Assembly (NCBI GenBank): GCA_903825645.1
Contig: CAIKBL010000023.1
Coordinates: forward strand, 1 to 64,000
Direction of reading: 5' to 3'
DNA: 64,000 nt
Source of the DNA: an uncultured Pseudomonadota bacterium
Lineage (GTDB): Bacteria; Pseudomonadota; Gammaproteobacteria; Ga0077536
Shown: positions 18,384 through 63,677 of the stretch, piece by piece
Numbering within the stretch: the first letter of the stretch is position 1
How the letters are laid out: each line of letters begins with the position of its first letter
Made by a program: the position numbers and the translations under genes
Notes under the pieces: model-generated
Databases searched by the model: none
What the model was told of the DNA's origin: nothing
The model's input: the letters and a program-made list of their open reading frames with translations, nothing else

Positions 18384-20015
18384 TTACATGTTTGGATAAT
18401 TGGGGCCGCCGCCCCCTTCAGGAGTCACCCAATCAATATTTTGTGAAGGATCCTTAATGTCACAGGTCTTGCAGTGCACGCAGTTTTGCGCATTGATGCG
18501 CAAACTTTGCTGACCAGATTCTTCGACGAACTCGTAGACACCTGCCGGACAGTAACGCTGCTCTGGCCCAGCGTAGACGGCGAGATTAAGCCGAACGGGA
18601 ACGCCCGCGTCTTTCAGCGTCAGATGGCAGGGTTGGTTTTCCTCATGGTTGGTGTTTGACAAAAACACCGAGGACAGCTTATCGAAGGTCAGTTGGCCAT
18701 CCGGTTTGGGATAATCAATGGGCTTGCATTGTGCCGCAGGTTTGAGCGAAGTGTGATCCGGCGTATGCCTGAATGTCCAAGGTGCCTTACCGCGTAAGAC
18801 CAAGGTATCGAGCGCCCCGTAGCCTAGGGCCACCCAAAGCCCCCAATGGAATGCCGGCTTGATGTTCCTCACTCGGTAGAGTTCATCCCAGAGCCACGAG
18901 TTCTTCAGGCGATGGGGGTAATCCACGGCTTCGCGCCCAATTTTATCGTCGACCCGGAGTAATTCGAACACGGCTTCCGCAGCCGTCATCCCCGATTTCA
19001 TCGCCGTGTGGCTGCCTTTTATTTTCGGCAAATTGAGAAAACCGGCGGTGTCCCCGACGAGCATGCCGCCCGGGAACGTCAACTTGGGAATGGATTGAAA
19101 ACCACCCGCGCTTATTGCGCGTGCACCGTAGGAAACGCGGCGCCCGCCACTAAATGTTTCACGAATGGCCGGATGCGTTTTGAACCGCTGCATTTCATCG
19201 AAAGGGCTCAGATAGGGATTACTGTAATTGAGGCCCAACACATAACCAACCGCGACCAAGTTGTTCTCAAGATGATAGAGAAAAGAGCCCCCGTACGTTG
19301 CCTGATCGACGGGCCAACCAATAGTATGGCTGACCAGACCTTCGAGGTGCTGATCAGGCTTCACTTCCCATAATTCCTTAATGCCTATCCCATAGACCTG
19401 CGGATCGACACCACTGCGCAACTGGAAGCGCTCAAATAATGTCTTGGTCAGTGACCCACGGCAACCTTCAGCAAAAATAGTCTGCCGCGCATGAAGTTCC
19501 ATTCCAGGCGCAAAATTCGCACCCTCCTCACCCGCCTTCGTCCGCCCCATGTCTCCGGTTGCGACGCCCTTTACAGAGCCATCTGGATGATAGAGGACTT
19601 CGGCCGCGGCAAATCCGGGATAGATGTCAACGCCCAAGGCCTCTGCCTGCTGCGCAAGCCATCGACAAACATTACCCAAACTGACGATATAGTTCCCATG
19701 ATTATGCATGGGGGGCGGCGTGGGCAATCTAAATGCCCGTTTTTCAGTCAGAAACAGAAAGCGATCTTCCGTGACCGGGGTGTTAAGTGGTGCGCCAAGC
19801 GTCTTCCAATCCGGGAGCAACTCGTCTAAAGCCCGTGGCTCAAAGACGGCGCCTGACAGCGTGTGCGCGCCTATCTCCGAGCCTTTCTCGAGCACACACA
19901 CCGAAAGCTCATGGCCGTGCTCCGTCGCCAACTGTTTCAACCGTATCGCCGCAGCAAGGCCCGCTGGCCCACCGCCCACGATGACGACATCGAACTCCAT
20001 TGCCTCTCGCTCCAT
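18384..20015 (-). CDS. Electron transfer flavoprotein:ubiquinone oxidoreductase
   Basis: Membrane-associated flavoprotein that passes electrons from reduced ETF to ubiquinone. The 543 residues match the family: N-terminal FAD motif ([17 protein letters not shown]), TLSGAVFEP, the [16 protein letters not shown] contact, and a C-terminal [4Fe-4S] ligand set, YCPAGVYE plus [16 protein letters not shown] 20015 is preceded by AAAGGGAG; an in-frame ATG five codons later is less likely. It lies 20 bases after etfA in the same direction, giving a complete ETF to quinone route for the acyl-CoA dehydrogenases encoded in this window. Confidence 0.96.
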
Positions 20016-20035
20016 GAGCTTGCTCCCTTTCGACG

Positions 20036-20968
20036 CTACTTACTGAGCGCGTCGATTAACGCGGGCACTTCCTTGAACAGATCACCCACCAGCCCATAAT
20101 CCGCCACTTGAAAAATAGGCGCTTCCTCGTCCTTGTTGATGGCGACAATGACCTTGCTGTCCTTCATGCCCGCAAGATGTTGAATAGCACCGGAGATCCC
20201 AACAGCGACGTAAAGCTGCGGCGCTACTACCTTGCCAGTCTGACCAACCTGATAGTCATTGGGGACGTACCCGGCATCGACCGCTGCCCGAGAGGCACCC
20301 ACTGCCGCACCGAGGGTATCCGCCAACTTTTCGATAATCGCAAAATTCTCGGCACTGCCGACGCCCCGTCCACCTGACACGATAATGTCGGCCGCCGCGA
20401 GTTCTGGTCGGCTAGATTTTGTAAGTTCTTCCCCCTTGAAAGAAGATAACCCTGCATCTGGCCCTGGTGGCACCTTTTCGATCGCGGCGCTACCGCCCGT
20501 GGCGGCCACCGGATCAAAACCTGTAGTCCGCACCGTGATCGCTTTGACTCGATCGATTGACTGCACTGTCGCCAAGACATTGCCGGCATAGATCGGTCGC
20601 ACGAAGGTATCCTCACTGACAACACTTATGATGTCTGAGAGCTGCGCCACATCCAGTAACGCGGCTATTCGCGGCATTACGTTTTTCCCGTTGCTCGTTG
20701 CGGCCACCAGAAGATGACTGTAGCCGGCGGCCAACTGCACTACCAAGGGTGCGAGATTTTCCGCCAATCCATGTGCATAATGTCCGGCATCAGCGAGCAG
20801 CACTTTGCTGACACCCATTACCTGTGCAGCTGCATCTGCCACAGCCTGACATTCGTGGCCTGCCACGAGGATGTCCACTGAACCCAGTTTACTCGCCGCG
20901 GCGACGGCGTTAAGCGTCGCGATGTTGAGCATGACGTTGTTATGTTCTGCAATGACGAGGGCACCCAT
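20036..20968 (-). CDS. etfA: Electron transfer flavoprotein, alpha subunit
   Basis: FAD-binding subunit of the ETF heterodimer, which accepts electrons from acyl-CoA dehydrogenases. The C-terminal FAD signature is intact: [17 protein letters not shown] followed by [19 protein letters not shown]. The [12 protein letters not shown] block is also typical. At 310 residues it has normal length. It follows etfB with a three-base gap, so the subunits are translationally linked. Confidence 0.96.
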
Positions 20969-20971
20969 AAT

Positions 20972-21721
20972 TCAAATTACCTTAGCTTCGTTGCGGAGTT
21001 TTGCTACTAATTCTTGAACATCTGCGACCTTCACACCGCCCGCCCTTGCGGCAGGCTCCGCGGCCTTAACGAGTTTCAGGCGCGGACTGATGTCTACCCC
21101 GAGTTCGGATGGGGTCACGATATCTAGGGGCTTCTTTTTTGCCTTCATGATGTTCGGTAATTTGACATAGCGAGGTTCGTTGAGTCGTAGATCGGCGGTG
21201 ACTACTGCAGGCAGCTTAAGACTCAAGGTCTGCAGTCCGCCGTCAACTTCACGCTTCACTTCCAAGGTCTCCGATTGAACATCTAGTTTGGCCGCAAAGG
21301 TGCCCTGCGCCCAACCAAGTAATCCGGCGAGCATCTGGCCCGTCTGATTGGAATCGTCGTCGATCGCCTGCTTGCCAAGAATCACCAACCCCGGTTGCTC
21401 TTTATTGACCAACGCTTGCAATAACTTGGCGACCGCTAAGGGCTGCACCTCTTCATCGGTTTGTACCAAAATGCCCCGATCCGCACCCATGGCCATCGCC
21501 GTCCGCAAGGTTTCCTGACATTGGGCTGAGCCAATCGAAACCGCCAAGATTTCTTGGGCCTTACCGGCCTCCTGGAGGCGAATAGCCTCTTCTATCGCGA
21601 TTTCGTCAAAAGGGTTCATCGACATCTTGACGTTGGCGAGTTCAACGCCGGAGCCATCAGATTTCGGACGCGCTTTAACGTTGTAATCAATAGCGCGCTT
21701 CACGGCCACCAGGATCTTCAT
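20972..21721 (-). CDS. etfB: Electron transfer flavoprotein, beta subunit
   Basis: AMP-binding and recognition-loop subunit of ETF. The N-terminus [14 protein letters not shown] and the [11 protein letters not shown] block are family signatures, and the recognition region ([19 protein letters not shown]) is present. ATG 21721 has a strong GGAGG seven bases upstream, giving 249 residues; the frame is open seven codons further without need. It is first in a run of six or seven genes. Its promoter must lie in the 250-base interval shared with the divergent gcdH. Confidence 0.96.
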
Positions 21722-21875
21722 GATTGCCTCCAGCTTAAGCAATTGGCGCCATCACGCACGCGGACCCTTCTCTGGGCGCGCGTAGGATGAGGCATGGACT
21801 CTATCAGGACGCCGGATATTACCAGTAAAGGCCTGATCGAAAAAGGCGAGATAAACGAGCAGACTGCGACACCGA

Positions 21876-21889
21876 GCGGCGCGCGCCGC
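21876..21889. promoter_or_regulatory. Perfect 14-base palindrome between etfB and gcdH
   Basis: GCGGCGC followed by GCGCCGC forms a perfect palindrome roughly in the middle of the divergent interval between etfB and gcdH. It could be an operator serving both promoters; its purely G/C composition means chance cannot be excluded. Confidence 0.35.
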
Positions 21890-21972
21890 GACGGTAGTTT
21901 GTGTGGGCTCGACCCACCCCGAGCGTGGTGCGAAGATGCCACCCGTCGTACGTCAACAGAAGGAAACACCGC

Positions 21973-23196
21973 ATGCCTAATCGCTCAGATTCGCTCAAAA
22001 ATGCACCGTCGGCCTCTGCCGAGAGCGCCTTTAACTGGGAAGATCCACTCTTGATCAGCAACCAGTTAACCGAGGAGGAGCGACTTGTACGGGACGCTGC
22101 GCGCGCCTTTTGCCAGGAGCGTCTGCAGCCCAGAGTCCGTGATATGCATCGGCACGAAACATTCGAACGCAGCCTCATGGAGGAATTTGGCGCGTTGGGT
22201 TTCCTAGGTTCCACTATCCCGACCGAATTCGGAGGTGGTGGATTGAATTATGTGTCCTATGGCCTTATCGCACGGGAAGTTGAGCGCGTGGATTCGGGAT
22301 TTCGCTCCGCAATGAGCGTGCAATCGAGTCTCGTGATGTATCCGATCTATGCGTATGGAAATGACGCGCAGCGACGGAAATATCTACCCAAGTTGGCCTC
22401 CGGTGAGTGGGTCGGCTGTTTCGGACTCACCGAGCCTGACCATGGCTCAGATCCCGGCGGTATGCAGACGAAAGCTGTCTCCGTCGCCGGTGGGTACAAA
22501 CTCACCGGAAACAAAATGTGGATCACTAACTCTCCGTTAGCGGACGTTCTGGTCGTATGGGCGAAAACTTCTGACAGTATTATTCGAGGTTTTGTGCTGG
22601 AGCGCGGTATGGCGGGCCTCGGCACACCCAAAATTGAAGGGAAGTTCTCGCTTCGCGCATCGGTAACCGGCGAAATTGTAATGGCGGATGTTTTCGTCCC
22701 CGAGGCTAATCTGTTGCCCAATGTCCAGGGCCTTCGTGGTCCCTTTGGCTGTCTGAACAGGGCTCGCTATGGCATTTCTTGGGGTGCTATGGGAGCGGCG
22801 GAGTTCTGTTGGCATGCGGCTCGTCAATACACGCTCGACCGCAAGCAGTTCGGTCGTCCGCTCGCCGCGACCCAGTTAGTTCAAAAAAAGCTAGCCGACA
22901 TGCAGACCGAAATCACGCTGGGACTGCAAGGCGCCCTACAGCTTGGCCGAATGATCGACGCGGGCGTAGGGGCACCGGAAGCAATTTCATTGATGAAAAG
23001 AAACAACTGCGGTAAAGCTTTGGATATCGCCCGCCAAGCACGTGACATGCACGGTGGTAACGGCGTCTCAGACGAATACCACGTAATTCGCCATCTCATG
23101 AACCTCGAAGCCGTCAATACCTATGAGGGTACCCATGATGTTCATGCGCTCATTCTCGGACGAGCCCAAACGGGTTTACAAGCCTTCACGGCCTAA
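21973..23196 (+). CDS. gcdH: Glutaryl-CoA dehydrogenase
   Basis: Oxidises and decarboxylates glutaryl-CoA to crotonyl-CoA in lysine, tryptophan and some aromatic-acid pathways, giving electrons to ETF. The 407-residue sequence follows mitochondrial GCDH closely: [68 protein letters not shown] and [17 protein letters not shown]. The last contains the catalytic glutamate (YEGT). ATG 21973 has AAGGAAA upstream and begins at the family N-terminus. It is divergent from etfBA, which supplies its electron acceptor. Confidence 0.96.
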
Positions 23197-24131: not shown

Positions 24132-25034
24132 TTACGGCCCCTCGCCAGCGGCGTCAAGCCGACGCGTGGCGTCGGCGAAATAGTCGGGCTTGTCCGTTGT
24201 CCAGATTTCCCCCCAATGCTGGCCAGCGCCATCGATGGTGAGGATTTCTCCGTTAATGTATCCACCTGCTGGGCCCCCGATAAAAACGGCAGCCTCCGCA
24301 ATCTGCCAAGGCGACCCGACCCGCTGCATCGGGTTAGTCAATGGGTATTTCGCGCGCGCCGCCTCACTATAGACCGCCCACCCTTCCGTCTGAATCGTGC
24401 CCGGGGCAATACAGTTGACGCGAATATCGAGAGGGGCCCATTCGACAGCGACAGCTTGTGACACCGCCACAACCCCTGCACGTGCGGCGACCGTATGGGC
24501 GACGCCATGCAGTCCCCGAGGCACCACCACAATATTCACGATGCTGCCAGGAAGATGCGTATCGCGCCATTTACGTGCGTGTGCCTGCATCATCGACCAC
24601 GTACCATTTAAGTTGGTGTTAATGACCGTATTCCAGCCCTTTTCCGAGAAATCGAGAGCGGCCTGCGGAAACTGCCCACCTGCACTGTTGATAAGGATGT
24701 CGACTTTCTCAAAGCGCCCCCATATCGTCTCCGTTGAGCGTTCAACCCAAGCTCGATCGCGAATATCGACCGGTTCAAACTCCGCATCCAACCCGTGTTC
24801 CCGCATAGCATCGACTACGCCAACAAGCTTGTCCTCGTTTCGTCCACAGATGATGACGCTCGCCCCGAGACGCCCTGCGAGCCAAGCCGTCGCCCGACCA
24901 ATACCGCTACCGCCGCCTGACACGAGAACAACTTTACCTTGCAGCATATCCGGCGCGAAGACCGTAGGATGAATCGCAAGTTCTTCGTTGCTGGTCGGAA
25001 TTTCATTGAGGTCCGTCATGGTCGCCGTACTCAT
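24132..25034 (-). CDS. SDR family oxidoreductase resembling peroxisomal-type 2,4-dienoyl-CoA reductase
   Basis: A 300-residue short-chain dehydrogenase. The cofactor motif SGGGSGIGRA (39-48) and INSAGG are standard, but the catalytic YxxxK is missing: the region reads AHTVAARAG, with Arg185 at the lysine position and Thr181 at the tyrosine position, and His180 just before. That layout, followed by AVEWAPLDIRVN and APGTIQTEG, matches the peroxisomal 2,4-dienoyl-CoA reductase type and related SDRs of acyl-CoA pathways. It overlaps the acyl-CoA dehydrogenase stop (ATGA) and is last in the operon, so a dienoyl- or oxoacyl-CoA substrate is likely. Confidence 0.83.
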   Translation of the reverse strand: MSTATMTDLNEIPTSNEELAIHPTVFAPDMLQGKVVLVSGGGSGIGRATAWLAGRLGASVIICGRNEDKLVGVVDAMREHGLDAEFEPVDIRDRAWVERSTETIWGRFEKVDILINSAGGQFPQAALDFSEKGWNTVINTNLNGTWSMMQAHARKWRDTHLPGSIVNIVVVPRGLHGVAHTVAARAGVVAVSQAVAVEWAPLDIRVNCIAPGTIQTEGWAVYSEAARAKYPLTNPMQRVGSPWQIAEAAVFIGGPAGGYINGEILTIDGAGQHWGEIWTTDKPDYFADATRRLDAAGEGP

Positions 25035-26245
25035 CGCCGTTGTAACAATTCGCGACTAATGATCATTTTTCGTACTTCAGTAGTGCCTGCGCCAATTTCC
25101 AAAAGTTTGATCGAACGATAGAGCCGATTGATCTCTGCTTCCCAGATGTAACCATAGCCACCGTGGATTTGAAGCGCCTCGTTCAGTACCTGATTGAGAG
25201 TATTCGCGGTATACATCAGCGAAGCTGCTGTCTGGGCATGGATCATGCCGCGACCACCCTCGCCAACTTCCAAATCGTTGGCTTCTGCGAGCACGCCGTA
25301 ACATAGCGCGCGCATGCTCTCGACCCAAACGTACATGTCGGCAATCTTCGATTGGATCATTTGAAATTCAGACAACGGCTTGCCGAATTGGACACGCGTT
25401 TTCGCGTAATCAATCGAAAGCTCAAGCGCACGCTCAGCAACCCCAACGCAGATAGGCGAAATCACGGCGCGCTCGAGATCGAGTCCGCTCATAACCACGG
25501 CGACACCCATGTTTTCCTGCCCAACCAGATTTTCAACAGGAACTTTACAGTTATCGAAAACCAACTCTCCGGTCTGACTCCCGCGAAAGCCCATTTTTAT
25601 GAGTTTTTGCGCGACACGAAAGCCTGGAAAGTTCTTTTCGACGATAAACGCGGATATACCATGAGGACCTCGCTCGGGAGCGGTCTTCGCGTAAACGAGC
25701 AAGGTATCGGCAACTGGTCCATTCGTGATGTAGATCTTGCGCCCATTCAAGATGTAGTAACCGCCGTCTCGCTTCGCCGTCGTGCGCATGGAACCGAGCG
25801 CATCGGAACCTGCCTCGGGCTCTGTCAATCCCAAGGCGCCAATGGCTTTACCGGAACACAAGTCAGGCACGTATTTTCGACGCAAATCGTCGTTGGAGTT
25901 ACGATAAATATTATTCAGGCACAGATTTTCGTGTGCTATCCAGGACAAGCTAAGCGCGTAGTTCCACCGCGCCATGGCCTGACAAACTAGTCCACTGGTA
26001 AAGAAATCCAGACCGGCGCCCCCATACTCTTCTGGCACAGTGATTCCGAAGTAGCCTTGTTCTCCAATTTTCTCAAACACATCCTCCGGCCACCATTCCT
26101 CGTTGTCCATACGCGCAGCTAGTGGGTACAGCACATTACGTGAGAACTTGTCCGCTTCATCCAGAATGGTTTGTTGATCCGGTGTCAACTTGAATGCATG
26201 TGAACGCGGGGCAGCACTATCAAGGCTTGAAGATGGCTGGGACAT
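25031..26245 (-). CDS. Acyl-CoA dehydrogenase (isovaleryl-CoA dehydrogenase-type active site)
   Basis: A 404-residue flavoenzyme. GALGLTEPEAGSDA and YITNGPVADT are the FAD and substrate motifs. The catalytic glutamate is at the isovaleryl/long-chain position, E258 in SGLDLER, while the usual C-terminal position reads EIGAGTTEVR without glutamate. This points to branched or otherwise unusual acyl-CoA substrates. ATG 26245 follows a GGAG; a GTG four codons earlier is possible. It lies 117 bases after the enoyl-CoA hydratase and overlaps the SDR start. In LvaC and ACAD10/11 systems a dehydrogenase-family protein acts on a phosphorylated 4-hydroxyacyl-CoA; here that role is inferred from context. 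Confidence 0.9.
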   Translation of the reverse strand: MSQPSSSLDSAAPRSHAFKLTPDQQTILDEADKFSRNVLYPLAARMDNEEWWPEDVFEKIGEQGYFGITVPEEYGGAGLDFFTSGLVCQAMARWNYALSLSWIAHENLCLNNIYRNSNDDLRRKYVPDLCSGKAIGALGLTEPEAGSDALGSMRTTAKRDGGYYILNGRKIYITNGPVADTLLVYAKTAPERGPHGISAFIVEKNFPGFRVAQKLIKMGFRGSQTGELVFDNCKVPVENLVGQENMGVAVVMSGLDLERAVISPICVGVAERALELSIDYAKTRVQFGKPLSEFQMIQSKIADMYVWVESMRALCYGVLAEANDLEVGEGGRGMIHAQTAASLMYTANTLNQVLNEALQIHGGYGYIWEAEINRLYRSIKLLEIGAGTTEVRKMIISRELLQRR

Positions 26246-26362
26246 CGTAAACTCCACTCGGCAGGTTGAAATCTAAATTTTCCGTGGCATCTAGCCATCG
26301 GCATTTGTTTGTCGGACCATAACGAATGCCCCCGGGGTTGTCCAACCAGAGGGCCTTAGCAG

Positions 26363-27142
26363 TCAGGTCTGTGGCTTACTCTTGGCGAGAAACGCCTCCA
26401 TCGTGGCGAGCGTTGCGGGTGTTGCCGCGAGGCTTGCAATGGCCGCGCCTTCAAGCTCCAGTTGCTCAGGCAGTGTGTTTCGCAAACTTTGACGCAATAG
26501 CGCCTTCAAATTACCGACTGCATCGGAAGGCATAGATGCGAGTTGCAGCACCAATTTTTCGACCTCTTGTTCGAAGGTCTCGTCATCGACTACCCGGGCG
26601 ATCAACCCCAGCTTTTGCGCCATATCCGCTGTCAGCGTTGGGTTGGTCGCAAGAATATCGAATGCGCGCTGCACCCCCACAAGTCGTGGCAGGAAATAAG
26701 TCGCCCCACCATCCGGCGTAAGGCCTGATCGCGTATAGGCGAAATTAAATTTCGAAGAGCGACTCGCGATGGCGAGATCGGTCATGCATACAAGGCTAAC
26801 GCCGCCTCCCGCCGCGAGGCCATTAACCGCGGCTACCACCGGCACCGCCAATTTATTTAAGACCGCGATCGCCGAGTGAAAATCAATCGTCATTTCACGC
26901 ACATGCGACTGAATGTGATCGCGCTCTCGCACAAACTCTCGCAAATCGCCCCCGACCGAAAACTGGTGGCCCTCGGCACTCAACAATACGCAACGTAACC
27001 CGGGCGTCACCTCACATTGGACCGCGGCGGTCCTGAGACCCTGCGTAACGAGTCGATCAACGGCGTTATAACCAGTCGGGTTAGAAAGCGTAATTCGAGC
27101 AATTCCGTTCTGGATTGAGAATTTAACCTTGCCACCACTCAT
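26363..27142 (-). CDS. Enoyl-CoA hydratase/isomerase family protein
   Basis: A 259-residue crotonase-fold protein. The oxyanion-hole motifs are present (SVGGDLREF and NGLAAGGGVSLV), as is the SGLTPDGGATYFLPRLVG segment. The first catalytic glutamate position of classical hydratases is less clear than in FadB, so isomerase or hydratase activity cannot be separated. The overall pattern resembles PaaG-like members. Its ATG overlaps the stop of the preceding DUF6285-like gene by four bases. Confidence 0.87.
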   Translation of the reverse strand: MSGGKVKFSIQNGIARITLSNPTGYNAVDRLVTQGLRTAAVQCEVTPGLRCVLLSAEGHQFSVGGDLREFVRERDHIQSHVREMTIDFHSAIAVLNKLAVPVVAAVNGLAAGGGVSLVCMTDLAIASRSSKFNFAYTRSGLTPDGGATYFLPRLVGVQRAFDILATNPTLTADMAQKLGLIARVVDDETFEQEVEKLVLQLASMPSDAVGNLKALLRQSLRNTLPEQLELEGAAIASLAATPATLATMEAFLAKSKPQT

Positions 27143-27513
27143 CGACGTTCCTCTCTATGGATAGCGTTTAAATGCTCCGGCTTAGACACCATAACCTTGT
27201 CGATTACGTGATGAAGAACCAGCTCCGTCACCTTGTCCCACTGTTCGTCGAAGCGACCTTCGCGCAGTCCTGCCGCTAACGCTCGAGTTGCCGCCAACGG
27301 CACCATAGGTCTTCCTAAAAATGTGCAAAGCACGTCATTTTTTTTATCCGCAAGGCGCGCATCATCAGAAATTTCGCGCTCGGCTACACTCAACAGATAA
27401 CTGCAGCACATAGCATGGTATCGATCTTTATCAGGCACATCTTCTTTGATCTGTTCGATGAAATCACGGACTACTCTCAGTATATCGGGTAGCGACGGCT
27501 GGTCTTGGCTCAT
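27139..27513 (-). CDS. DUF6285-like small protein (LvaB-like position)
   Basis: A 124-residue, probably all-helical protein without signal or membrane segment. It fits the family I know as DUF6285: DILRVVRDFIEQ at the N-terminus, a long helix with YHAMCCSYLLSVAEREI, and a C-terminal helix. Such proteins are encoded beside APH-like acyl-CoA kinases; in the P. putida lva system the equivalent small protein, LvaB, is needed with kinase LvaA. It lies 12 bases after the kinase gene and overlaps the hydratase gene, so the three are tightly coupled. The family assignment is from memory of the pattern, not from a search. Confidence 0.7.
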   Translation of the reverse strand: MSQDQPSLPDILRVVRDFIEQIKEDVPDKDRYHAMCCSYLLSVAEREISDDARLADKKNDVLCTFLGRPMVPLAATRALAAGLREGRFDEQWDKVTELVLHHVIDKVMVSKPEHLNAIHREERR

Positions 27514-27525
27514 AGTAGAATTGTC

Positions 27526-28548
27526 TCAGTGGTAGTGACCGAGCAGGGTCATTAGCAGGTCATATTCAATCAGTGCGGTGTTACGTCCACACGCTGCAAA
27601 GGCTGGCGAGCGACGTACACCGGTCCAGTGGCCGTGAGCCTGCATAATATTGAGCACTATCCAGCGAACAAACCCGAATACCTCCCACCAGTGCACGGCT
27701 TCGGCGTCAACCTCAATCCCGCTTGCCGCCGTGTATGCCCGATACAGTGGCTCGCGACCGCAGAATCCACCAACTGGTTTGTCGATGAGCCCGAAGCGCC
27801 ATGAACGCAAACACAGCCAACCGAATTCTTCCATGGGATCGCCAAGATGAGCGCATTCCCAGTCCAGTACCGCCCGGATTCCTTCCTGCCCCATAAGCAG
27901 ATTGCCGGTGCGAAAGTCACCATGGAGAAGACAGCGATTTGACGCGCGACGGGGGTGTCGAACCAACCAGCGAATCGCTAATTCGAGTGCCGGATGGGCC
28001 TCACCGTAATAATCAAAGCGCGCGAGTTGCGCCGCTACCGGATCGAGACTATCCGGGGTCTGTTCGAGGAACACTGCTTCCAGCGTCGAGATCGCGTGCA
28101 GCCGTCCAATAAAGTCACCTGCCTGCGTAGGAAAGTTCTGGCGTGCCATTTCGAATCGAGGGTCGGTCAGGAGTCGTCGGGGCAACGTTTCTCCCTCAAC
28201 AAAGGCCACGACATAGCCACGGTCAAGTCCATCTTGCGGTTCAAACTCGAAAATCGGCTCCGGAATCGCCAACCCATGGCGCTGCGCGACTTCAAGCAAC
28301 TGGTACTGGTCATGTGGCGCAATAAATGGCGACTGCTCGAGACGATAAGTTTCTTGCCTGAAGACCAAGCGACGGCGCGTAGGGCCTTCGACTAGGTCGA
28401 AAAGCAGTGTGCGATTTGAGCCGCCAAGCGTTGCTACCTCGATATTTTCAAGGGCGGCAGCCGTTCCAAAACGACGCCTTACCGCGCCCTCGAGCCGCTG
28501 TAGCAGCTCTCGGGGCGCCGCGGGTGAAGATGTTGCATCCATGTTCAT
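27526..28548 (-). CDS. APH-like phosphotransferase (acyl-CoA pathway kinase; LvaA/ACAD10-11 kinase-domain type)
   Basis: A 340-residue aminoglycoside-phosphotransferase-fold kinase. The catalytic loop is HGDFRTGN (209-216) and the metal-binding segment is LDWECAHLGDP (228-238). The GGSNRTLLF loop near residue 42 replaces the usual glycine-rich motif. Members of this subgroup are fused to, or encoded beside, acyl-CoA dehydrogenases (ACAD10/11, LvaA) and phosphorylate the hydroxyl of hydroxyacyl-CoAs rather than antibiotics. Its neighbours here support that reading and argue against a resistance gene. The stop of the paralogue pair's second gene abuts it directly. Confidence 0.85.
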   Translation of the reverse strand: MNMDATSSPAAPRELLQRLEGAVRRRFGTAAALENIEVATLGGSNRTLLFDLVEGPTRRRLVFRQETYRLEQSPFIAPHDQYQLLEVAQRHGLAIPEPIFEFEPQDGLDRGYVVAFVEGETLPRRLLTDPRFEMARQNFPTQAGDFIGRLHAISTLEAVFLEQTPDSLDPVAAQLARFDYYGEAHPALELAIRWLVRHPRRASNRCLLHGDFRTGNLLMGQEGIRAVLDWECAHLGDPMEEFGWLCLRSWRFGLIDKPVGGFCGREPLYRAYTAASGIEVDAEAVHWWEVFGFVRWIVLNIMQAHGHWTGVRRSPAFAACGRNTALIEYDLLMTLLGHYH

Positions 28549-29550
28549 TCAGAGCGGATAACCGACCGGTTTTCCATCTTCTAGGACTTCGATGTATTCC
28601 GTCATCCCTACTCCCGAACGATCGCCCCACTGCCAATGTGTGAAACCCTCGGCAATTCGGGATTCCAGCGTCCCGGCCCCCTCTTTGCGCCGATTACGCA
28701 ACGGCAACAAGGTTTTGATTTCCCCCGTCACCTGTACCGCCCGTTGTGCCGTGCGGATACCGAGCTGTACATGACGGGGATCTTTTTCAGGCGTCCAATC
28801 TGTCCAAACATCCAAATCGGTAATTTCCTCGTACCCCCCGTCGTATTGAAGCACACCACATCGACGAGTAACCCCATCTCGCCCCGTGATTTTAAGTAAC
28901 ATAAAGCCCCGATCTGGACCAAAATTTGCGATAAAAAGACGATAAAAATAAATGTTAGTCCAGAAGCGCGGTCCCCAGGAATGATCACGCCAACCATGCC
29001 CGTCGAGGGGGAAAAATTCGTCTCCGACCCGGATGTGACCTAATACATTGGTATGTTGATTGAAATGGCCCAGCGAGAAATCGCGGCCATACATCGTCTC
29101 GATGTGAGGGTCCATCGGCTCACCACCATGCAATGGCGAATTACCCGTTGCTTCAAGCACGACTTCACAGGCTAACCGCGGGGCATTGGCAAATACTTTT
29201 TTTGGATCGCGCATCTGCTCCGCGCCAGACAGCACCATAACTTCGCCCTCATAGCGCATGCCCACCCGTTTCAAAGGCTCCGACACATGATATTTGAGCC
29301 CGCCCGCATCGTGCTGACCATTGGAGACGATAGTCGGTCGTTGGAACTGGCAGGCAACTCGGCCATCAGGAAGATAAAGACACACGGAAAGCTCCGCGTA
29401 TCCTTCATTGACCCGATTGCCGAGCCGCATCCAGGCACCGTAGCGGCCTGCTGGATGAAAGCCATTCAGATAGACGCTTTCGTTGAAATTTTTTTCAGAA
29501 GACGGCGTATGGGTTAACTCATCCTGTGCGGTAAGGCGAAACGATTGCAT
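28549..29550 (-). CDS. AttH/CrtC-like uncharacterised protein, copy 2 (DUF7064/7065-like)
   Basis: A 333-residue cytosolic protein with no signal peptide. The conserved core is GWRDHSWGPR at 186-195, preceded by YGRDFSLGHFNQHT (154-167); the WxDHxWGxR pattern recalls the hydroxyneurosporene-synthase/AttH lipocalin-like superfamily. It aligns without gaps to the next gene upstream across at least 200 residues, and both end in GMTEYxEVxxDGxPxGYPL. The function is unknown; a role in binding or hydrating a hydrophobic substrate is only a guess. Its stop directly abuts the kinase ATG at 28548, so the two are cotranscribed. Confidence 0.75.
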   Translation of the reverse strand: MQSFRLTAQDELTHTPSSEKNFNESVYLNGFHPAGRYGAWMRLGNRVNEGYAELSVCLYLPDGRVACQFQRPTIVSNGQHDAGGLKYHVSEPLKRVGMRYEGEVMVLSGAEQMRDPKKVFANAPRLACEVVLEATGNSPLHGGEPMDPHIETMYGRDFSLGHFNQHTNVLGHIRVGDEFFPLDGHGWRDHSWGPRFWTNIYFYRLFIANFGPDRGFMLLKITGRDGVTRRCGVLQYDGGYEEITDLDVWTDWTPEKDPRHVQLGIRTAQRAVQVTGEIKTLLPLRNRRKEGAGTLESRIAEGFTHWQWGDRSGVGMTEYIEVLEDGKPVGYPL

Positions 29551-29644
29551 GGATTCTCTTTCGATTGTGGACGGGACTGTCTGTCAAATTGTCTAATGAA
29601 GCCCGTAAAAGGCGCGATTTTCGCGCCAGTCCGGAAGCATGTAG

Positions 29645-30646
29645 CTAGAGAGGATAACCCGAAGGAATCCCGTCGCGCATGACCTCTACATATTCGGTCA
29701 TGCCATACCCCTTCAACTCGCCCCAAGTGTACTCGGTGAAACACTCAGCGATCCGAGATTCTGTCAGCACACCCGCAATCTCGCGACGATTACGCAATGG
29801 CGCACAGTTCAATATACGTCCTTCAATTAGAGCCGCTCGGCGTGCAGTCCTCACGCTCAGACGGAAACTGACCGGATCTCGTTCATCAGACCACTCGTTG
29901 AAGATGTCCAAATCTATAATTTCTTCATATTTGCCATTTACTTGCAAAACACCGCCACGACGGACCTGCCCGTCCCCATTTGCGATTTTCAATAACATCA
30001 ACCCATGGCATGAATCAAAATTCGCCATGTAAAGCCGGTCAAACAAAATGTTTTGCCAAAGCCGAGGTCCCCACGAGTGATCACGCCAGCCAAGCCCATC
30101 CAGATCCCAGTGCTCGTCGCCCAGCTGGAGGCGGCCGGTAACCTGGGTATGTTGGTTGAAATGACCGAGGGAAAAATTCCTACCATAAAGTGTTTCCTGA
30201 TCATCACGCGTCGGTAAGCCGCCATGGACAGGCGACACCCCTTTATGAACCCATTGAACTTCGGCGGAGACTCTCGGTGCGCGCGCAAACAAGGTCTTTG
30301 GATCTCTGAACCAGTCAGGATCTGATACCAGCATCAATTCACCGCGGTAAGTCATCGTGATGGCTTGCAGCGGCTCCTGGACCGTTACCTCCAAGCCACC
30401 GGCGGAAAAACGCGAATTGTCTAGGATCTTTGGGCGCTTGAACTGACAGGCAATACGCCCGTCGGGCAAATACAGACAGACCGCCAGCTCGGCATAACCC
30501 TCGTGAACTCGGTTACCAAGCCGCATCCAACCGCCCCACTGGTGTCGGTGATCGAAGGCATTCATATAAACGCTTTCGTTAAAACAGCTCTCCGCGGATG
30601 GCGAGTGCGGATATTCGTCCTCTGCAGTCAAAAGATAGGATGACAT
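29645..30646 (-). CDS. AttH/CrtC-like uncharacterised protein, copy 1 (DUF7064/7065-like)
   Basis: A 333-residue paralogue of the next gene downstream, the same length and gaplessly alignable. The same core motifs are present: YGRNFSLGHFNQHT and GWRDHSWGPR at identical positions. Divergence is spread along the chain, indicating an old duplication and possibly a heterodimer or two substrates. ATG 30646 was chosen because its product aligns exactly with the N-terminus of the other copy; the frame stays open 22 codons upstream. It is the first gene of the leftward operon. The 94 bases between the copies show no strong terminator. Confidence 0.75.
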   Translation of the reverse strand: MSSYLLTAEDEYPHSPSAESCFNESVYMNAFDHRHQWGGWMRLGNRVHEGYAELAVCLYLPDGRIACQFKRPKILDNSRFSAGGLEVTVQEPLQAITMTYRGELMLVSDPDWFRDPKTLFARAPRVSAEVQWVHKGVSPVHGGLPTRDDQETLYGRNFSLGHFNQHTQVTGRLQLGDEHWDLDGLGWRDHSWGPRLWQNILFDRLYMANFDSCHGLMLLKIANGDGQVRRGGVLQVNGKYEEIIDLDIFNEWSDERDPVSFRLSVRTARRAALIEGRILNCAPLRNRREIAGVLTESRIAECFTEYTWGELKGYGMTEYVEVMRDGIPSGYPL

Positions 30647-30843: not shown

Positions 30844-31860
30844 ATGCGCTTTGGCTTTATGGAAGATTTTCGCAACCCCGTAAAATGGCGCAAGCCCTTT
30901 CCGGAGTTCTATTCATCTATTTTTGATCAAATCGTGCGGGCGGAAGAATTGGGCTATGACAACGTCTGGCTGACTGAGCATCACTTCACCGAGGACGGCT
31001 ATAATCCGTCCATGTTCCCGACCGCCGCCGCAATCGCGGCTCGGACCAGTCGAATCCGCATTGGCACCTTCATTCATCTTCTACCATTCACGCATCCAGT
31101 CCGCGCGGCAGAAGATCTCGCTTGCGCCGACATTATCTCCAACGGCCGTATCGATTATGGCATTGGCCAAGGGTACTCCTATCACGAATTCAATGCCTTC
31201 TGCATGAACCGGAGCGAGCGTGGCCTGCGCATGCGTGAAGGCATTAACCTCATGGTTAAGCTTTTCACCGAAGAAAAAGTGACTTTCGATGGGCGCTTCA
31301 CGCAAGTCAAGGAAATGACCCTTTCACCAAAGTCAGTGCAACTCCCCCATCCACCAATCTGGGTAGGTGCGCGCGGGCCGAAAGCGATTAAGCGTGCTGC
31401 TGAGATGGGCTACCACCTGATGGCGACGCTTGGACCTGATCCGGCGCCGCTCTACCAGCAGACTTTGCAGGAGACTGGGCGCAACCCGGCAGACTTCAAT
31501 ATATGTCAATTGCGGATGGTGTATTGCGCCGAAAACGAAGACCAAGCCTGGGACGAATGCCAACATCACCTATTCCACCTATTTGATTTTTATCAGGATA
31601 TCCTGTCCGAAGCGAACGATGCGGAAGGGGATGACAAACCGCTACCCATCTCGCGGGCAGAAGATATTCGCCACTCCCCCCTCGCAGAGGGATTGATGAT
31701 TGGGACACCCGAGCAGGTTGCCCGCAAGATGGAGAAATTCGCGGCTACTTATCAGTGCACTGACTTCATCATGGATTGTCAGTTCCCGGGACTAAATCCT
31801 AAGCTAGGTACACGCTCGTTGGAACTCTTCGCTAAGGAAGTTATGCCGGCATTCCGCTAA
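30844..31860 (+). CDS. LLM-class flavin-dependent oxidoreductase (first)
   Basis: A 338-residue luciferase-like monooxygenase-fold protein. Typical features are MRFGFMEDFRNP at the N-terminus, AEELGYDNVWLTEHHF (helix and strand 2), RIRIGTFIHLLPF, RIDYGIGQGY and WVGARGPKAIKRAAEMG. The EHHF motif favours FMN-dependent monooxygenases over F420-dependent dehydrogenases. GGGAGG precedes the ATG with good spacing. It is divergent from the tandem-paralogue operon across a palindrome-bearing promoter region and probably belongs to the same catabolic function. The substrate is unknown. Confidence 0.9.
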   Translation: MRFGFMEDFRNPVKWRKPFPEFYSSIFDQIVRAEELGYDNVWLTEHHFTEDGYNPSMFPTAAAIAARTSRIRIGTFIHLLPFTHPVRAAEDLACADIISNGRIDYGIGQGYSYHEFNAFCMNRSERGLRMREGINLMVKLFTEEKVTFDGRFTQVKEMTLSPKSVQLPHPPIWVGARGPKAIKRAAEMGYHLMATLGPDPAPLYQQTLQETGRNPADFNICQLRMVYCAENEDQAWDECQHHLFHLFDFYQDILSEANDAEGDDKPLPISRAEDIRHSPLAEGLMIGTPEQVARKMEKFAATYQCTDFIMDCQFPGLNPKLGTRSLELFAKEVMPAFR

Positions 31861-31946: not shown

Positions 31947-33104
31947 TCAGATCACATTGTCCGCTATAAGCCCACGGATTTCCGCATCGTTGTAACCCAG
32001 TTCACGCGCAATTTGTCCGGAATGCTCGCCCAATGCCGGCACTCTAAAATCCACTTGTCCAGGCTCACTCGCATATTTGATCGGAATGCCAAGGTGATCG
32101 CGGCCCATGGCATCCTGCAGAAGCATCTCGCGTTCGGTCGTGTTCGGATCTAACGTCCCTTCGAGTAAGGTCCGCAGAGGCGCGTAACAACAGTCCACAT
32201 CACTCAGCCATTCCAGGGCTTCAGCTTGCGTCTTCGCCTGGAAGAAATCTCGTAAAAATTCAATGACTGGTACCTGCGTGCGCCCCGGCGGATTTCGACA
32301 CAAATCGAGCAGATCCAGTCGATCTGATTTGCGTAGAAAATTCTCACAAAAATGCAGTTCAATACCACCAAGTACGATCCACTTACCATCACTGGTTTCG
32401 TACATGTTGTAGAACGCCTGTCCGCCCCAATTACGCTCGAACTTGACGTCGTGCGCTTGACGCGCCGCGAACACCGGCCCTTGATAGTTAGCTGTCCAGG
32501 CCAGTAGCGCGTCATGCATGGAAATATCGAGGAAGTCTCCTTGTCCGGTTGTGCGCTGTCGCACCAGCGCCATTAAAACACCTGCAAACGCCGTGAGGGA
32601 CCCACACATGTCAGCCGACGGCATGCCAACCAGCGTGGGTTTGCCATCATGTCCAACATTGAACGACATCACGCCCAGCAACGCTTCCACGGCGACGTTA
32701 TGCGCGGGCCGGTCGCGGTAGCGCCCAGCTTGTCCGAAGGCGGAAAGCGAACAGTAGACCAACTGAGGGGCATGTGTCTTGAGCACGTCATAACCAAGAC
32801 CGAGCCGCTCAATCACGCCTGGCCGAAATCCCTCGACAAACACGTCGGCGTTCTTCACAAGCCTGAGTAACAGCTCTTTGCCGCGTGGATCCTTGAGATT
32901 CAAACGAAGACTACGTTTGCCTCGATGGGTGTTTCGGAACCAAATGGACTCTCCGTCCTGCATCCAGCCGACCTGCCGCACGGGCTCTCCGCTGAACGAC
33001 TCGACGCGGATGACATCGGCACCATGGTCCGACATCATCATCGTGAAATGCGGACCTGGCAGGAACATCGACAGGTCGACGACTTTGATACCTTCAAGCT
33101 TCAT
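31947..33104 (-). CDS. Class III (CaiB/BaiF) CoA-transferase
   Basis: Transfers CoA between carboxylic acids through an aspartyl intermediate. The 385-residue chain has the family start LEGIKVVDLSMFLPGPHFT, the EGFRPGVIERLGLGYD block, and the expected catalytic aspartate D165 in MPSADMCGS. ATG 33104 is the family N-terminus; the frame remains open 13 codons upstream. It could activate the acid handled by the neighbouring operons. A terminator just upstream at 33142-33171 isolates it from the SRPBCC gene, so it needs its own promoter in about 40 bases or depends on readthrough. Confidence 0.92.
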   Translation of the reverse strand: MKLEGIKVVDLSMFLPGPHFTMMMSDHGADVIRVESFSGEPVRQVGWMQDGESIWFRNTHRGKRSLRLNLKDPRGKELLLRLVKNADVFVEGFRPGVIERLGLGYDVLKTHAPQLVYCSLSAFGQAGRYRDRPAHNVAVEALLGVMSFNVGHDGKPTLVGMPSADMCGSLTAFAGVLMALVRQRTTGQGDFLDISMHDALLAWTANYQGPVFAARQAHDVKFERNWGGQAFYNMYETSDGKWIVLGGIELHFCENFLRKSDRLDLLDLCRNPPGRTQVPVIEFLRDFFQAKTQAEALEWLSDVDCCYAPLRTLLEGTLDPNTTEREMLLQDAMGRDHLGIPIKYASEPGQVDFRVPALGEHSGQIARELGYNDAEIRGLIADNVI

Positions 33105-33141
33105 AACTAGGACACCCCGTCGCACGCAATAAAACGCAAAC

Positions 33142-33171
33142 AAAAAAAAGCGGGGACTCGAGGCCCCCGCT
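33142..33171 (-). terminator. Strong intrinsic terminator after the SRPBCC gene
   Basis: On the minus strand a seven-base stem AGCGGGG/CCCCGCT (33165-33171 with 33149-33155) is followed by eight T residues (the A run at 33142-33149). It ends the SRPBCC transcript 24 bases after its stop. Confidence 0.85.
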
Positions 33172-33194: not shown

Positions 33195-33614
33195 TCAGGC
33201 TTTCGCAATCGCATTAATCAAATTTTCGTAAAGACCTGTCAGCATCGTTTTTACTTCCGCCTCCGGCGCACCTTTTGCTACCCAGTTGCTCCCCCAAACA
33301 ACCCGGCAGCCCCCATCAGGCGCGTCCGACAACGTGACAACGGCGTGATAATGGTCGAGTGGTAACGGGCTAGGTGCGACGATCGAGTACGAAAAAACTG
33401 ACTGTTCATACGCGCAGTCAAGACGTTCTATGACCTCACCCGGCGCGCCCTTAAGCTTGATCGTGCGCTCAGCTCCGACGCCGACACCCGTCAGGGTGCA
33501 TGATTCGACGGCATCACCGAGTAGCTTACCCACACCGCCAAAATCCATCAGCGAGGCAAACACCTTCGAACGTGCGACCGGAATGGTTTTGTCGACGACT
33601 ACAGCATATCCCAT
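33195..33614 (-). CDS. SRPBCC (START-like) family protein
   Basis: A 139-residue helix-grip protein of the polyketide-cyclase/START superfamily. The pattern KTIPVARSKVFASLMDFGG at the start, a central ERLDCAYEQSVFSYSIV strand and a long C-terminal helix (VKTMLTGLYENLINAIAKA) are typical. These proteins bind hydrophobic ligands in a deep cavity; some are cyclases or hydratases. GGAGG lies eight bases upstream of ATG 33614. Its place among catabolic genes suggests ligand binding for the same pathway; no catalytic role can be claimed. Confidence 0.85.
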   Translation of the reverse strand: MGYAVVVDKTIPVARSKVFASLMDFGGVGKLLGDAVESCTLTGVGVGAERTIKLKGAPGEVIERLDCAYEQSVFSYSIVAPSPLPLDHYHAVVTLSDAPDGGCRVVWGSNWVAKGAPEAEVKTMLTGLYENLINAIAKA

Positions 33615-62972: not shown

Positions 62973-63677
62973 TCAGCTTTTTCGCCGCTTCCAAGCGTAA
63001 GACAAACCGGTCAGCCCAATAGCGAATAACGAGAAGGTAGCCGGCTCGGGCACCGTCGCAGGATTTACCGCTGGGGGATTGGAAGTACTGGTAGCAAAGC
63101 TACACGCTTCATCAGGGTTGTTGATTATACCGCTCCCACCGCTCTGGAGCACGCAAGATGAATTCTGATACCCACCACTAACGAATGCCGATTGGTTTTC
63201 ATTTCCGTTCACGGAAGGGAATGCAGTCCCCGGTGCATTTAATACGTTACTTGTACTATTCCAAACGACGTCAAAATAAACGCTAGGGTACTGAGCATCG
63301 CCGCCATCAGCGCCGAGGACAATAATATTGCCGGTTCCATCCGTTTTCGCCCAAAGATCGAACAGTGTGGTGCCGCTGTTCGTGGAATTTAACGTCGACC
63401 CGTTTTGTGCGCTCGCAGACCAACTAGAGAGATCGCTGACGATATCCTGAAATGATAGACCAGGTGAGAGCGGACTGTTGAGCGTGAACGTGAAACTCAC
63501 ATAGTCAGTCGTAGAGAAGGACGTGCCAGTTGATCCATTAACAGCATAAGTGAAAGGGTTACCGGTATAAGTGTACGTCGCTCCCGCCTGACTCAGAATA
63601 GGTTGCGCCGGCGCGACAAAAGAGACGCACGAAAGAGTCACGGCAGCTGCGGTGATCAGTGATTTTCTTGTTTTCAT
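62973..63677 (-). CDS. PEP-CTERM sorting-domain exported protein
   Basis: A 234-residue secreted protein. A signal peptide (residues 1-24, ending near APAQP) is followed by a low-complexity Ser/Thr/Asn/Gly-rich body with two cysteines (SSCVLQ and EACSFA), typical of this class. The C-terminus VPEPATFSLFAIGLTGLSYAWKRRKS is a complete PEP-CTERM signal: PEP motif, hydrophobic segment and basic tail, recognised by an exosortase and linked to extracellular-polysaccharide producers. The exosortase is not in the window. A strong AAAGGAGG precedes ATG 63677. Confidence 0.92.
   Translation of the reverse strand: MKTRKSLITAAAVTLSCVSFVAPAQPILSQAGATYTYTGNPFTYAVNGSTGTSFSTTDYVSFTFTLNSPLSPGLSFQDIVSDLSSWSASAQNGSTLNSTNSGTTLFDLWAKTDGTGNIIVLGADGGDAQYPSVYFDVVWNSTSNVLNAPGTAFPSVNGNENQSAFVSGGYQNSSCVLQSGGSGIINNPDEACSFATSTSNPPAVNPATVPEPATFSLFAIGLTGLSYAWKRRKS

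Follow-up and report, generated by a model that had tools for sequence, protein, structure and literature searches.

A candidate ATP-driven dehydration module in an acyl-CoA operon of an uncultured gammaproteobacterium

Introduction

What reaction is served by an operon that places a kinase among the enzymes of acyl-CoA catabolism? This question is raised by seven genes located at positions 24132-30646 of a 64,000-nucleotide stretch of DNA from an uncultured gammaproteobacterium (contig CAIKBL010000023.1 of assembly GCA_903825645.1), referred to below as the window. In the order of transcription, the genes encode two DUF7065/DUF7064 proteins, designated PSL1 and PSL2, a kinase of the APH family, a small DUF6285 protein, a crotonase-fold protein, an acyl-CoA dehydrogenase (ACAD), and a short-chain dehydrogenase/reductase (SDR). 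A preliminary description, made from the sequence alone, compared this set with the lva operon of Pseudomonas putida and with mammalian ACAD10/ACAD11, and proposed a role in the catabolism of an oxygenated acid through a step not yet described.

We consider it reasonably probable that the operon joins an ATP-driven dehydration module, in which a hydroxyl group is phosphorylated and the phosphate is then eliminated, to the catabolism of branched unsaturated acyl-CoAs. We infer each of the catalyzed steps and the class of substrates; any single substrate would be named with much lower confidence than the chemistry. ATP-dependent dehydration of tertiary alcohols has been described for sterols in Sterolibacterium denitrificans, in which the tertiary 25-hydroxyl group is phosphorylated by 25-hydroxysteroid kinase (25-HSK) and the phosphate is eliminated by 25-phosphosteroid lyase (25-PSL) (PMC8449060, PMC7411048). 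The lyase acts in anaerobic sterol breakdown and has been solved under PDB entries 9fzn, 9g2i, and 9g4c (PMC8449060, PMC7411048, PMC11061730).

The front proteins resemble 25-phosphosteroid lyase

Both front proteins contain DUF7065 and DUF7064 (Pfam). The five best Foldseek rows for the predicted structure of PSL2 (pLDDT 93.1) were chains of 25-PSL, with E values of 6.6e-13 to 2.8e-12 (top match 9g2i, probability 1.00). Some of these chains, from entries released in January 2026, bear phosphate or phosphate and product. VIA-align superimposed PSL2 on 25-PSL over 276 aligned residues (Z 23.7, rmsd 3.2), the identity in structural alignments being approximately 15-17%. In a sequence search of a small set, a stretch of 25-PSL matched the PSL2 copy from a near relative (E 8.4e-6) as well as that of the window (E 6.7e-4).

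The motif RD[HK]SWG was retained in 100 of 100 lyase rows, including both copies of the window (RDHSWG), a count that is not fully independent of sampling because the rows were picked by profile score. The equivalent motif of 25-PSL is RDRSWG. In entry 9g4c, which contains phosphate and product, the position aligned with the Asp residue of the motif is occupied by Asn, a sequence difference that suggests inactivation of a catalytic Asp. Since RDxSWG is shared with 25-PSL and kinases are frequent neighbors, phosphate chemistry is favored over the other chemistries of this fold. The two front proteins are predicted, on the basis of the structural model, most likely to eliminate phosphate. The partners that the preliminary description had called unknown are therefore DUF7064/DUF7065 proteins fold-matched to 25-PSL, and its undescribed step would most likely be phosphate elimination by this pair, on a fold that has already been solved.

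A lyase tree was built from 186 frames, leaving out 37 frames in L001-L034 and 16 short or low-scoring frames, with duplicates merged. The PSL1 copies formed one clade (15 rows, support 100/99) and the PSL2 copies grouped with single-copy lyases from the window's family and from Porticoccaceae and their relatives (39 rows, support 96/81). This separation indicates that the duplication probably predates the genera of the family. Retention of RDHSWG by both copies argues for two functions or for a heteromer. Both proteins also matched the NCBIfam 'Rv3169 family' weakly, below the cut-off. Matches of PSL1 to Dicer-2 were disregarded (E 0.8). In the literature searched, no mention of DUF6285, DUF7064, or DUF7065 was found, and the available parts of the literature on 25-PSL gave no gene name for this enzyme. 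Another gammaproteobacterium harbors a closer relative of 25-PSL (L063:6892-11385, E 7.7e-16), whose gene run also includes APH and one further DUF7064 member.

Kinase and DUF6285 genes accompany the lyase genes

When the lyase alignment was used to scan the genomes of GTDB, 96 relatives were obtained; the best 80 were retained and gave 77 loci, several of which belong to the window's family. An APH kinase gene was located at most 2 kb from the lyase gene in 55 of the 77 loci, and a DUF6285 gene in 50. The same distance separated the lyase from a window-type crotonase in 26 loci and from an LvaC-type dehydrogenase in 9. For comparison, the 4.1-Mb genome of the window contains at least 13 APH matches at E 1e-5. 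Among 15 loci encoding distant DUF7064 members, APH was nearby in 7 (L060-L064, L239, L244). Adjacent kinase and DUF7064 genes are also present on plasmids of Mycobacterium branderi and Pseudonocardia. The metagenome-bin titles of four lyase loci look wrong (L073, L078, L113, Klebsiella pneumoniae; L136, Bifidobacterium breve).

The kinase family contains invariant HGDFRxGN and LDW motifs, and its profile matched PDB entries 3dxp, 9o56, 3ats, 9fsg, and ACAD11 at 72 to 52 bits. Entry 3ats is, we presume, Rv3168. Entry 9fsg (APH-like, possibly 25-HSK) scored 56.7 bits, no better than 3ats or 3dxp. These matches and motifs bear out the initial assignment of an APH-like kinase, here an APH-fold small-molecule kinase. 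In the kinase tree, the protein of the window belonged to a 61-row clade (100/100), in which each kinase gene was no more than 4.5 kb from a lyase gene or no more than 0.6 kb from a DUF6285 gene. A separate clade of 11 rows (100/99) comprised alphaproteobacterial kinases encoded near a lyase and an LvaC-type enzyme.

The 124-residue protein had been thought to be DUF6285-like, and the profile check bore this out (41.8 bits for a cut-off of 28.1). In 16 relatives, each a different genome, the kinase and DUF6285 form a single open frame, so that the view of the two as a unit stands for a pair that recurs and is at times fused. One fusion adjoins an LvaC-type dehydrogenase gene (L181), another is one gene away from it (L180), and in L194 genes for an LvaC-type dehydrogenase, kinase, and DUF6285 lie side by side. 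DUF6285 is thus predicted to be, probably, a kinase partner. In P. putida, LvaA is bound by LvaB, a protein of 12 kDa (PMC6692424, reporting Rand 2017), so that DUF6285 is plausibly LvaB-like. The DUF6285 model is all-helical (pLDDT 93.2). It had no Foldseek match at E 0.001, and its best VIA-align score, Z 6.3 over 47 residues, was uninformative either way. A PDB sequence match to a designed protein was disregarded (E 0.36).

Further kinase-DUF6285 pairs were observed. Contig C7 of the window's genome carries a second fusion, at approximately 26477-27200 (L055:9442-10524), which is interrupted by stop codons and preceded by what appears by eye to be transposase-like debris. In one relative, a second pair follows the SDR gene of the seven-gene operon (L039:15021-16435), and a pair likewise follows the ACAD and SDR genes in L193.

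The dehydrogenase, SDR, and crotonase are not those of the lva operon

The preliminary description had taken the ACAD and the SDR as counterparts of LvaC and LvaD, respectively. The alignment showed that the counterparts of R626, H634, R637, and D753 of ACAD11, the roles of which are described in PMC12440821, are all absent from the ACAD of the window. The four residues were also missing in five of five aligned relatives. The sequence RLGPGRIHHCMR of the fetched LvaC-type enzymes is replaced by GLDLERAVISPI in the window, and DGPDE by AGTTE, as in a protein annotated as isovaleryl-CoA dehydrogenase. At the positions checked, the window ACAD has the Glu of LDLERA and the Ala of IGAGT. The PDB entries that it matches best are named isovaleryl-CoA dehydrogenase. 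LvaC identity was ruled out by the 0 of 4 residues. Since the ACAD is not LvaC-like, something else should eliminate the phosphate.

The Tyr and Lys residues of the YxxxK motif were absent from the SDR in 28 of 28 rows, including that of the window, V-T-R or a variant thereof replacing S-Y-K. This ruled out LvaD identity, LvaD being presumably a classical SDR ketoreductase with YxxxK. The second PDB match of the SDR was 6lln, a 'putative dehydrogenase involved in catabolism of citronellol', and other matches included 1yxm (peroxisomal trans-2-enoyl-CoA reductase), 4fc6 and 1w6u (2,4-dienoyl-CoA reductases), and many 3-oxoacyl reductases.

The crotonase-fold protein, initially called an enoyl-CoA hydratase, belongs to the crotonase family as proposed, but it may be an isomerase. 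In 23 of 23 window-type rows, a count that omits distant paralogues L053_529, L060_13366, and L065_1473, TPDGG/TPDAG was kept and Ser occupied the first hydratase-Glu position (positions that we take from rat crotonase). This combination casts doubt on a hydratase role. PaaG (4fzw_C) ranked fifth among the PDB matches, and the residues suggest that the protein may be a PaaG-like isomerase. Together, a dehydrogenase, a dienoyl/enoyl reductase, and an isomerase would be a toolkit for unsaturated acyl-CoAs.

The gene order is conserved

Thirty-eight regions were fetched (L035-L072), 35 around DUF7064 hits and three from the window's genome, of which two surrounded DUF6285 hits and one was the end of the window's contig. 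This choice prevents the counts from being read as a population estimate. All seven genes were present in the same order on one strand in 8 of the 38 regions (L036-L039, L041, L043, L044, L046), some with extra intervening sequence, and in a ninth genome (L086, whose fetched region L040 ends early). The gene order is therefore shared with nine further genomes of the window's family, a conservation that the preliminary description had required for its lva comparison. Three regions were truncated by contig ends (L035, L042, L045). A single lyase gene was found in L047-L052 and L057, among which L048 and L051 were cut and L052 and L057 lacked the crotonase gene. L053 contained the lyase, kinase, and DUF6285 genes, and no crotonase, ACAD, or SDR gene of the window type. 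The two lyase genes were 1.5 to 4.1 kb apart in five loci (L038, L040, L043, L045, L046), and in L080 a solute-binding protein and a histidine kinase were encoded between them.

DUF7064 was present in 32 of the 58 relatives searched, 30 of these 32 being among the 36 genomes of the family. DUF6285 was present in 29 of the 58 relatives; in a sample of 370 genomes from the class, which also comprised members of the family, only 12 had it.

Branched-chain enzymes in the same regions

A single region of Sulfitobacter alexandrii encodes an enoyl-CoA hydratase, AtuA, a biotin carboxylase, a biotin carrier, a carboxyltransferase, an ACAD, an SDR, MaoC, a kinase, a CoA ligase, an LvaC-type dehydrogenase, and the lyase. 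Its ACAD and SDR are 67% and 60% identical to those of the window, respectively. AtuA and the lyase also share a region in Bradyrhizobium. In Rhodospirillales loci L119 and L128, the carboxyltransferase gene runs into those for the lyase, kinase, DUF6285, and crotonase. The window's genome encodes, on contig C39, a carboxyltransferase 74% identical to the L119 copy. This protein belongs to the methylcrotonyl/geranyl-CoA carboxylase family (622 bits for the beta subunit of methylcrotonyl-CoA carboxylase, MCC, and 479 bits for that of geranyl-CoA carboxylase, GCC). A carboxyltransferase 68-84% identical to the C39 copy was found in 7 of the 77 lyase loci, and none with at least 68% identity in the available stretches of the other 70. 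In relative G033, an 84% homologue adjoins PSL2. Presence of a carboxylase alone is weak evidence, because MCC-like enzymes are widespread. AtuA had no match in the window's genome, and control genomes likewise gave none. These sequence associations point to methyl-branched, isoprenoid-like substrates.

Layout of the locus

The region is filled by seven open frames, all on the minus strand (Table 1), so that the initial account of seven same-strand genes is upheld, its names holding at the level of Pfam families. The spacings in transcription order are 94, 0, 12, -4, 105, and -4 bases. The 'several 4-base overlaps' initially reported amount to two overlaps and one junction at which a stop codon abuts the next start codon (TGAATG). 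The ACAD frame is counted from a GTG codon at 26257, the ATG codon at 26245 being the likelier start. A promoter scan returned 3 matches, fewer than in shuffled sequence (mean of 7.3), and one promoter-like match lies inside the gap preceding the dehydrogenase gene. Matches of a terminator scan were not in excess over shuffles. The Pfam scan found no AMP-binding gene, as expected for an LvaE-like acyl-CoA synthetase, among the seven genes.

Table 1. Genes of the operon and of its upstream neighborhood (positions in the window).
Feature	Position	Strand	Basis
PSL1, DUF7065/DUF7064 protein, predicted phosphate lyase, first tandem copy, 333 aa	29645..30646	-	Pfam; RDHSWG motif; PSL1 clade
PSL2, DUF7065/DUF7064 protein, predicted phosphate lyase, second tandem copy, 333 aa	28549..29550	-	Pfam; model; Foldseek; VIA-align; sequence match to 25-PSL fragment
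APH-family small-molecule kinase, predicted alcohol kinase, 340 aa	27526..28548	-	Pfam; motifs; profile matches; tree clade
DUF6285 small protein, predicted kinase partner, 124 aa	27139..27513	-	Pfam; kinase fusions in relatives; model
Crotonase-fold protein (ECH_1), possibly PaaG-like enoyl-CoA isomerase	26363..27142	-	Pfam; PDB matches; residues
Isovaleryl-CoA-dehydrogenase-like ACAD	25031..26257	-	Pfam (acyl-CoA dehydrogenase domains); PDB matches; LDLERA / EIGAGT residues, LvaC motif absent
SDR without YxxxK, predicted enoyl-/dienoyl-CoA reductase type	24132..25034	-	adh_short_C2 (Pfam); V-T-R replacing S-Y-K; PDB match 6lln
Luciferase-like monooxygenase, divergent, upstream; possible pathway member	30844..31860	+	Pfam; conserved neighbor
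SRPBCC-fold protein (Polyketide_cyc2), frequent neighbor	33195..33614	-	Pfam

The luciferase-like monooxygenase gene adjoins the operon in same-family loci L035-L052 and L057, and the SRPBCC-fold gene is near it in L035-L049, L052, and L057. A class III CoA-transferase is encoded at 31947-33143, outside the seven-gene set. By-eye reading of the open frames downstream, at 18384-23196, suggests electron transfer flavoprotein (ETF) subunits, an ETF-quinone oxidoreductase, and a second ACAD. Elsewhere in the window, a secreted-looking protein (62973-63677) ends with a VPEP...RRK tail that we take to resemble a PEP-CTERM sorting signal, and a protein of 1471 aa that begins with a hydrophobic N-terminal segment (37917-42332) is AsmA/TamB-like at a glance only.

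Discussion

In the pathway that we propose, the APH kinase and its DUF6285 partner would phosphorylate an unreactive, probably tertiary, hydroxyl group of an acyl-CoA or isoprenoid substrate. The DUF7064/7065 proteins would then eliminate the phosphate to generate a carbon-carbon double bond. In a third step, the isovaleryl-CoA-dehydrogenase-like enzyme would add a conjugated double bond, and the SDR, of the enoyl/dienoyl-CoA reductase type, would act with the PaaG-like isomerase to remove or shift double bonds, by analogy with the oxidation of unsaturated fatty acids (e.g. 4-enoyl to 2,4-dienoyl to 3-enoyl to 2-enoyl-CoA). Finally, an enzyme of the methylcrotonyl-CoA carboxylase type, encoded elsewhere in the genome and beside the lyase in some relatives, may handle the methyl branch. 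More tentatively, the data are compatible with a modular alcohol dehydratase acting in two ATP-dependent steps, phosphorylation and elimination taken together, in which the kinase-DUF6285 unit is combined with either a flavin-type LvaC or a DUF7064/7065 lyase to convert tertiary hydroxyls of isoprenoid-type acyl-CoAs into enoyl-CoAs, PSL1 and PSL2 being a specialized pair (a heteromer or two regiospecificities) that predates the genera of the family.

Several observations speak against the dehydration pathway. In VIA-align, 25-PSL (Z 23.7) was slightly outscored by pericyclases (CghA, Fsa2, Phm7) and by AttH (Z 25-26), so that the chemistry is not settled by the fold. The DUF7064/7065 family profile did not match 25-PSL significantly by sequence (E 0.068), and a search of the PDB with PSL1 alone returned nothing meaningful. 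No APH gene was present in the available stretch, sometimes short, of 12 of the 77 lyase loci (L087, L099, L108, L118, L125-127, L131, L132, L136, L139, L140); seven of these 12 loci (L125, L126, L127, L132, L136, L139, L140) are actinobacterial and have a CoA ligase gene nearby. APH was also absent from the vicinity of 8 of the 15 distant DUF7064 loci (L054, L066, L068-L072, L243; two short), although these leave our confidence unchanged, being outside the window's own subfamily. In the kinase tree, rows L142_10371 (on a very long branch) and L200_4140 fell outside the 61-row clade with both neighbors present, and several long branches are unsure. Nine alphaproteobacterial loci encode both the lyase and an LvaC-type dehydrogenase within 2 kb, so that the lyase cannot be viewed simply as a replacement of LvaC. 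Window-type ACAD and SDR genes occur in only 22 and 24 of the 77 loci, respectively, so that the handling of double bonds is not universal, and the order of reactions within this step is proposed by analogy. The first four PDB matches of the crotonase are named enoyl-CoA hydratase, and the carboxylase is encoded on another contig than the operon. In S. denitrificans, no lyase candidate was located near the 25-HSK gene (PMC8449060).

The nine loci encoding both enzymes (L098, L101, L105, L111, L114, L121, L123, L130, L131) have no recognizable DUF6285. Eight of them (not L131) encode a different small protein, the gene for which directly follows the kinase gene in the annotated Sulfitobacter region.

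The best-surviving alternative, which we nevertheless regard as unlikely, is that phosphate chemistry does not involve the DUF7064/7065 pair, which would instead act as hydratases, isomerases, or pericyclase-like enzymes, the kinase having another substrate. Kievitone hydratase (Z 23.2), AttH, and the pericyclases have the fold of PSL2 (Z 23-26), and the eight distant loci without APH agree with this explanation. It would leave unaccounted for the linkage to APH in 55 of 77 loci, the RDxSWG motif in common with a phosphate-binding lyase, and the position of 25-PSL at the top of the Foldseek rows. That 25-PSL is the closest characterized lyase by Foldseek could also mean that the module is specific not for acyl-CoAs but for the side chain of sterols (25-hydroxysterol), like that of Sterolibacterium, and the name of one carrier, Croceicoccus estronivorus (L144), refers to steroid use. 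We find this improbable: the operon partners are acyl-CoA enzymes, accompanied by carboxylases in some relatives, and the sequence profile of the family is distant from 25-PSL, a much closer relative of that enzyme being encoded elsewhere (L063).

Slightly less probable still is a true lva-type pathway, in which the kinase and DUF6285 would produce a 4-phosphoacyl-CoA, the dehydrogenase would eliminate phosphate as LvaC does, the SDR would make the 4-hydroxy compound, and the front pair would be accessory. The absence of the four LvaC/ACAD11 residues from an ACAD that best matches isovaleryl-CoA dehydrogenases, of YxxxK from the SDR, and of an LvaE-like ligase from the seven genes argues against it, in spite of the order of kinase, small protein, dehydrogenase, and SDR, the homology of the kinase to the ACAD11 kinase domain, and the proximity of DUF6285 to LvaC-type ACADs in other loci. 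The lva comparison put forward initially therefore half holds, for the pairing of the kinase with DUF6285 and for the gene order, and fails for the dehydrogenase, the SDR, and LvaE. Finally, an aminoglycoside or macrolide resistance kinase present by chance, as the Pfam APH assignment and weak PDB matches to macrolide phosphotransferases might suggest, is most improbable in view of the higher scores of 3dxp, 9o56, 3ats, 9fsg, and ACAD11 (72 to 52 bits) than of macrolide kinases (33 bits or less) and of the conserved linkage to the lyase.

If the dehydration pathway is correct, the chemistry described for sterols in S. denitrificans extends to Myxococcota and to many members of the Alpha- and Gammaproteobacteria. 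Roles would be provided for three unnamed families, DUF7064 and DUF7065 being phosphate lyases and DUF6285 a subunit of the kinase. The pathway would also reveal a way for bacteria to open up branched, oxygenated carbon that is inaccessible to beta-oxidation. A second route beside the known levulinate one is suggested. The locus also corrects a misannotation, since a kinase gene beside a dehydrogenase gene does not alone denote elimination of the LvaC/ACAD11 type.

Comparison with known systems

The lva operon of P. putida resembles the window in encoding a kinase and a small partner followed by a dehydrogenase-family protein and an SDR, in this order (PMC6692424, PMC11342911, PMC12440821). 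In contrast, the window encodes an isovaleryl-CoA-dehydrogenase-like ACAD, an SDR without YxxxK, an additional crotonase, two lyases, and no LvaE, the latter being dispensable in P. putida (PMC6692424). None of the LvaC-type plasmid matches examined was a Pseudomonas lva operon. Since defining features (the LvaC-type residues, YxxxK, and LvaE) were absent, the operon of the window is not an lva operon proper. ACAD10 and ACAD11 have a homologous kinase domain and phosphorylate a hydroxyacyl-CoA prior to elimination (PMC12440821, PMC11342911), whereas the kinase and dehydrogenase of the window are separate genes and the dehydrogenase lacks the HCMR motif and the catalytic Asp.

The operon formed by Rv3168 and Rv3169 in Mycobacterium tuberculosis (PMC5340868) likewise comprises two adjacent genes, 3ats matching our kinase and the 'Rv3169 family' matching the front proteins weakly, below the cut-off; the available text of that report mentions no acyl-CoA operon and assigns no function. 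The Atu/Liu pathways for utilization of acyclic terpenes and leucine-isovalerate share carboxylase, acyl-CoA dehydrogenase, and crotonase steps with our proposal, although neither a kinase nor a phosphate lyase is among the enzymes listed in the available part of PMC4847356. AtuA shares a region with the lyase in the Sulfitobacter and Bradyrhizobium loci, the SDR of the window resembles 6lln, and a carboxyltransferase of the 3-methylenoyl-CoA carboxylase (MCC/GCC) type is encoded in the window's genome (C39).

The 25-HSK/25-PSL system has in common with the window the lyase fold, the RDxSWG motif, and an ATP-dependent dehydration via a phosphate ester, which is predicted here. It differs by the adjacent kinase and lyase genes, the tandem lyases, DUF6285, and the acyl-CoA enzyme partners of the window. 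The operon of the window is thus a new combination of a kinase-DUF6285 unit with a DUF7064/7065 lyase, which is predicted to work, probably, like the 25-HSK/25-PSL system, on branched acyl-CoAs.

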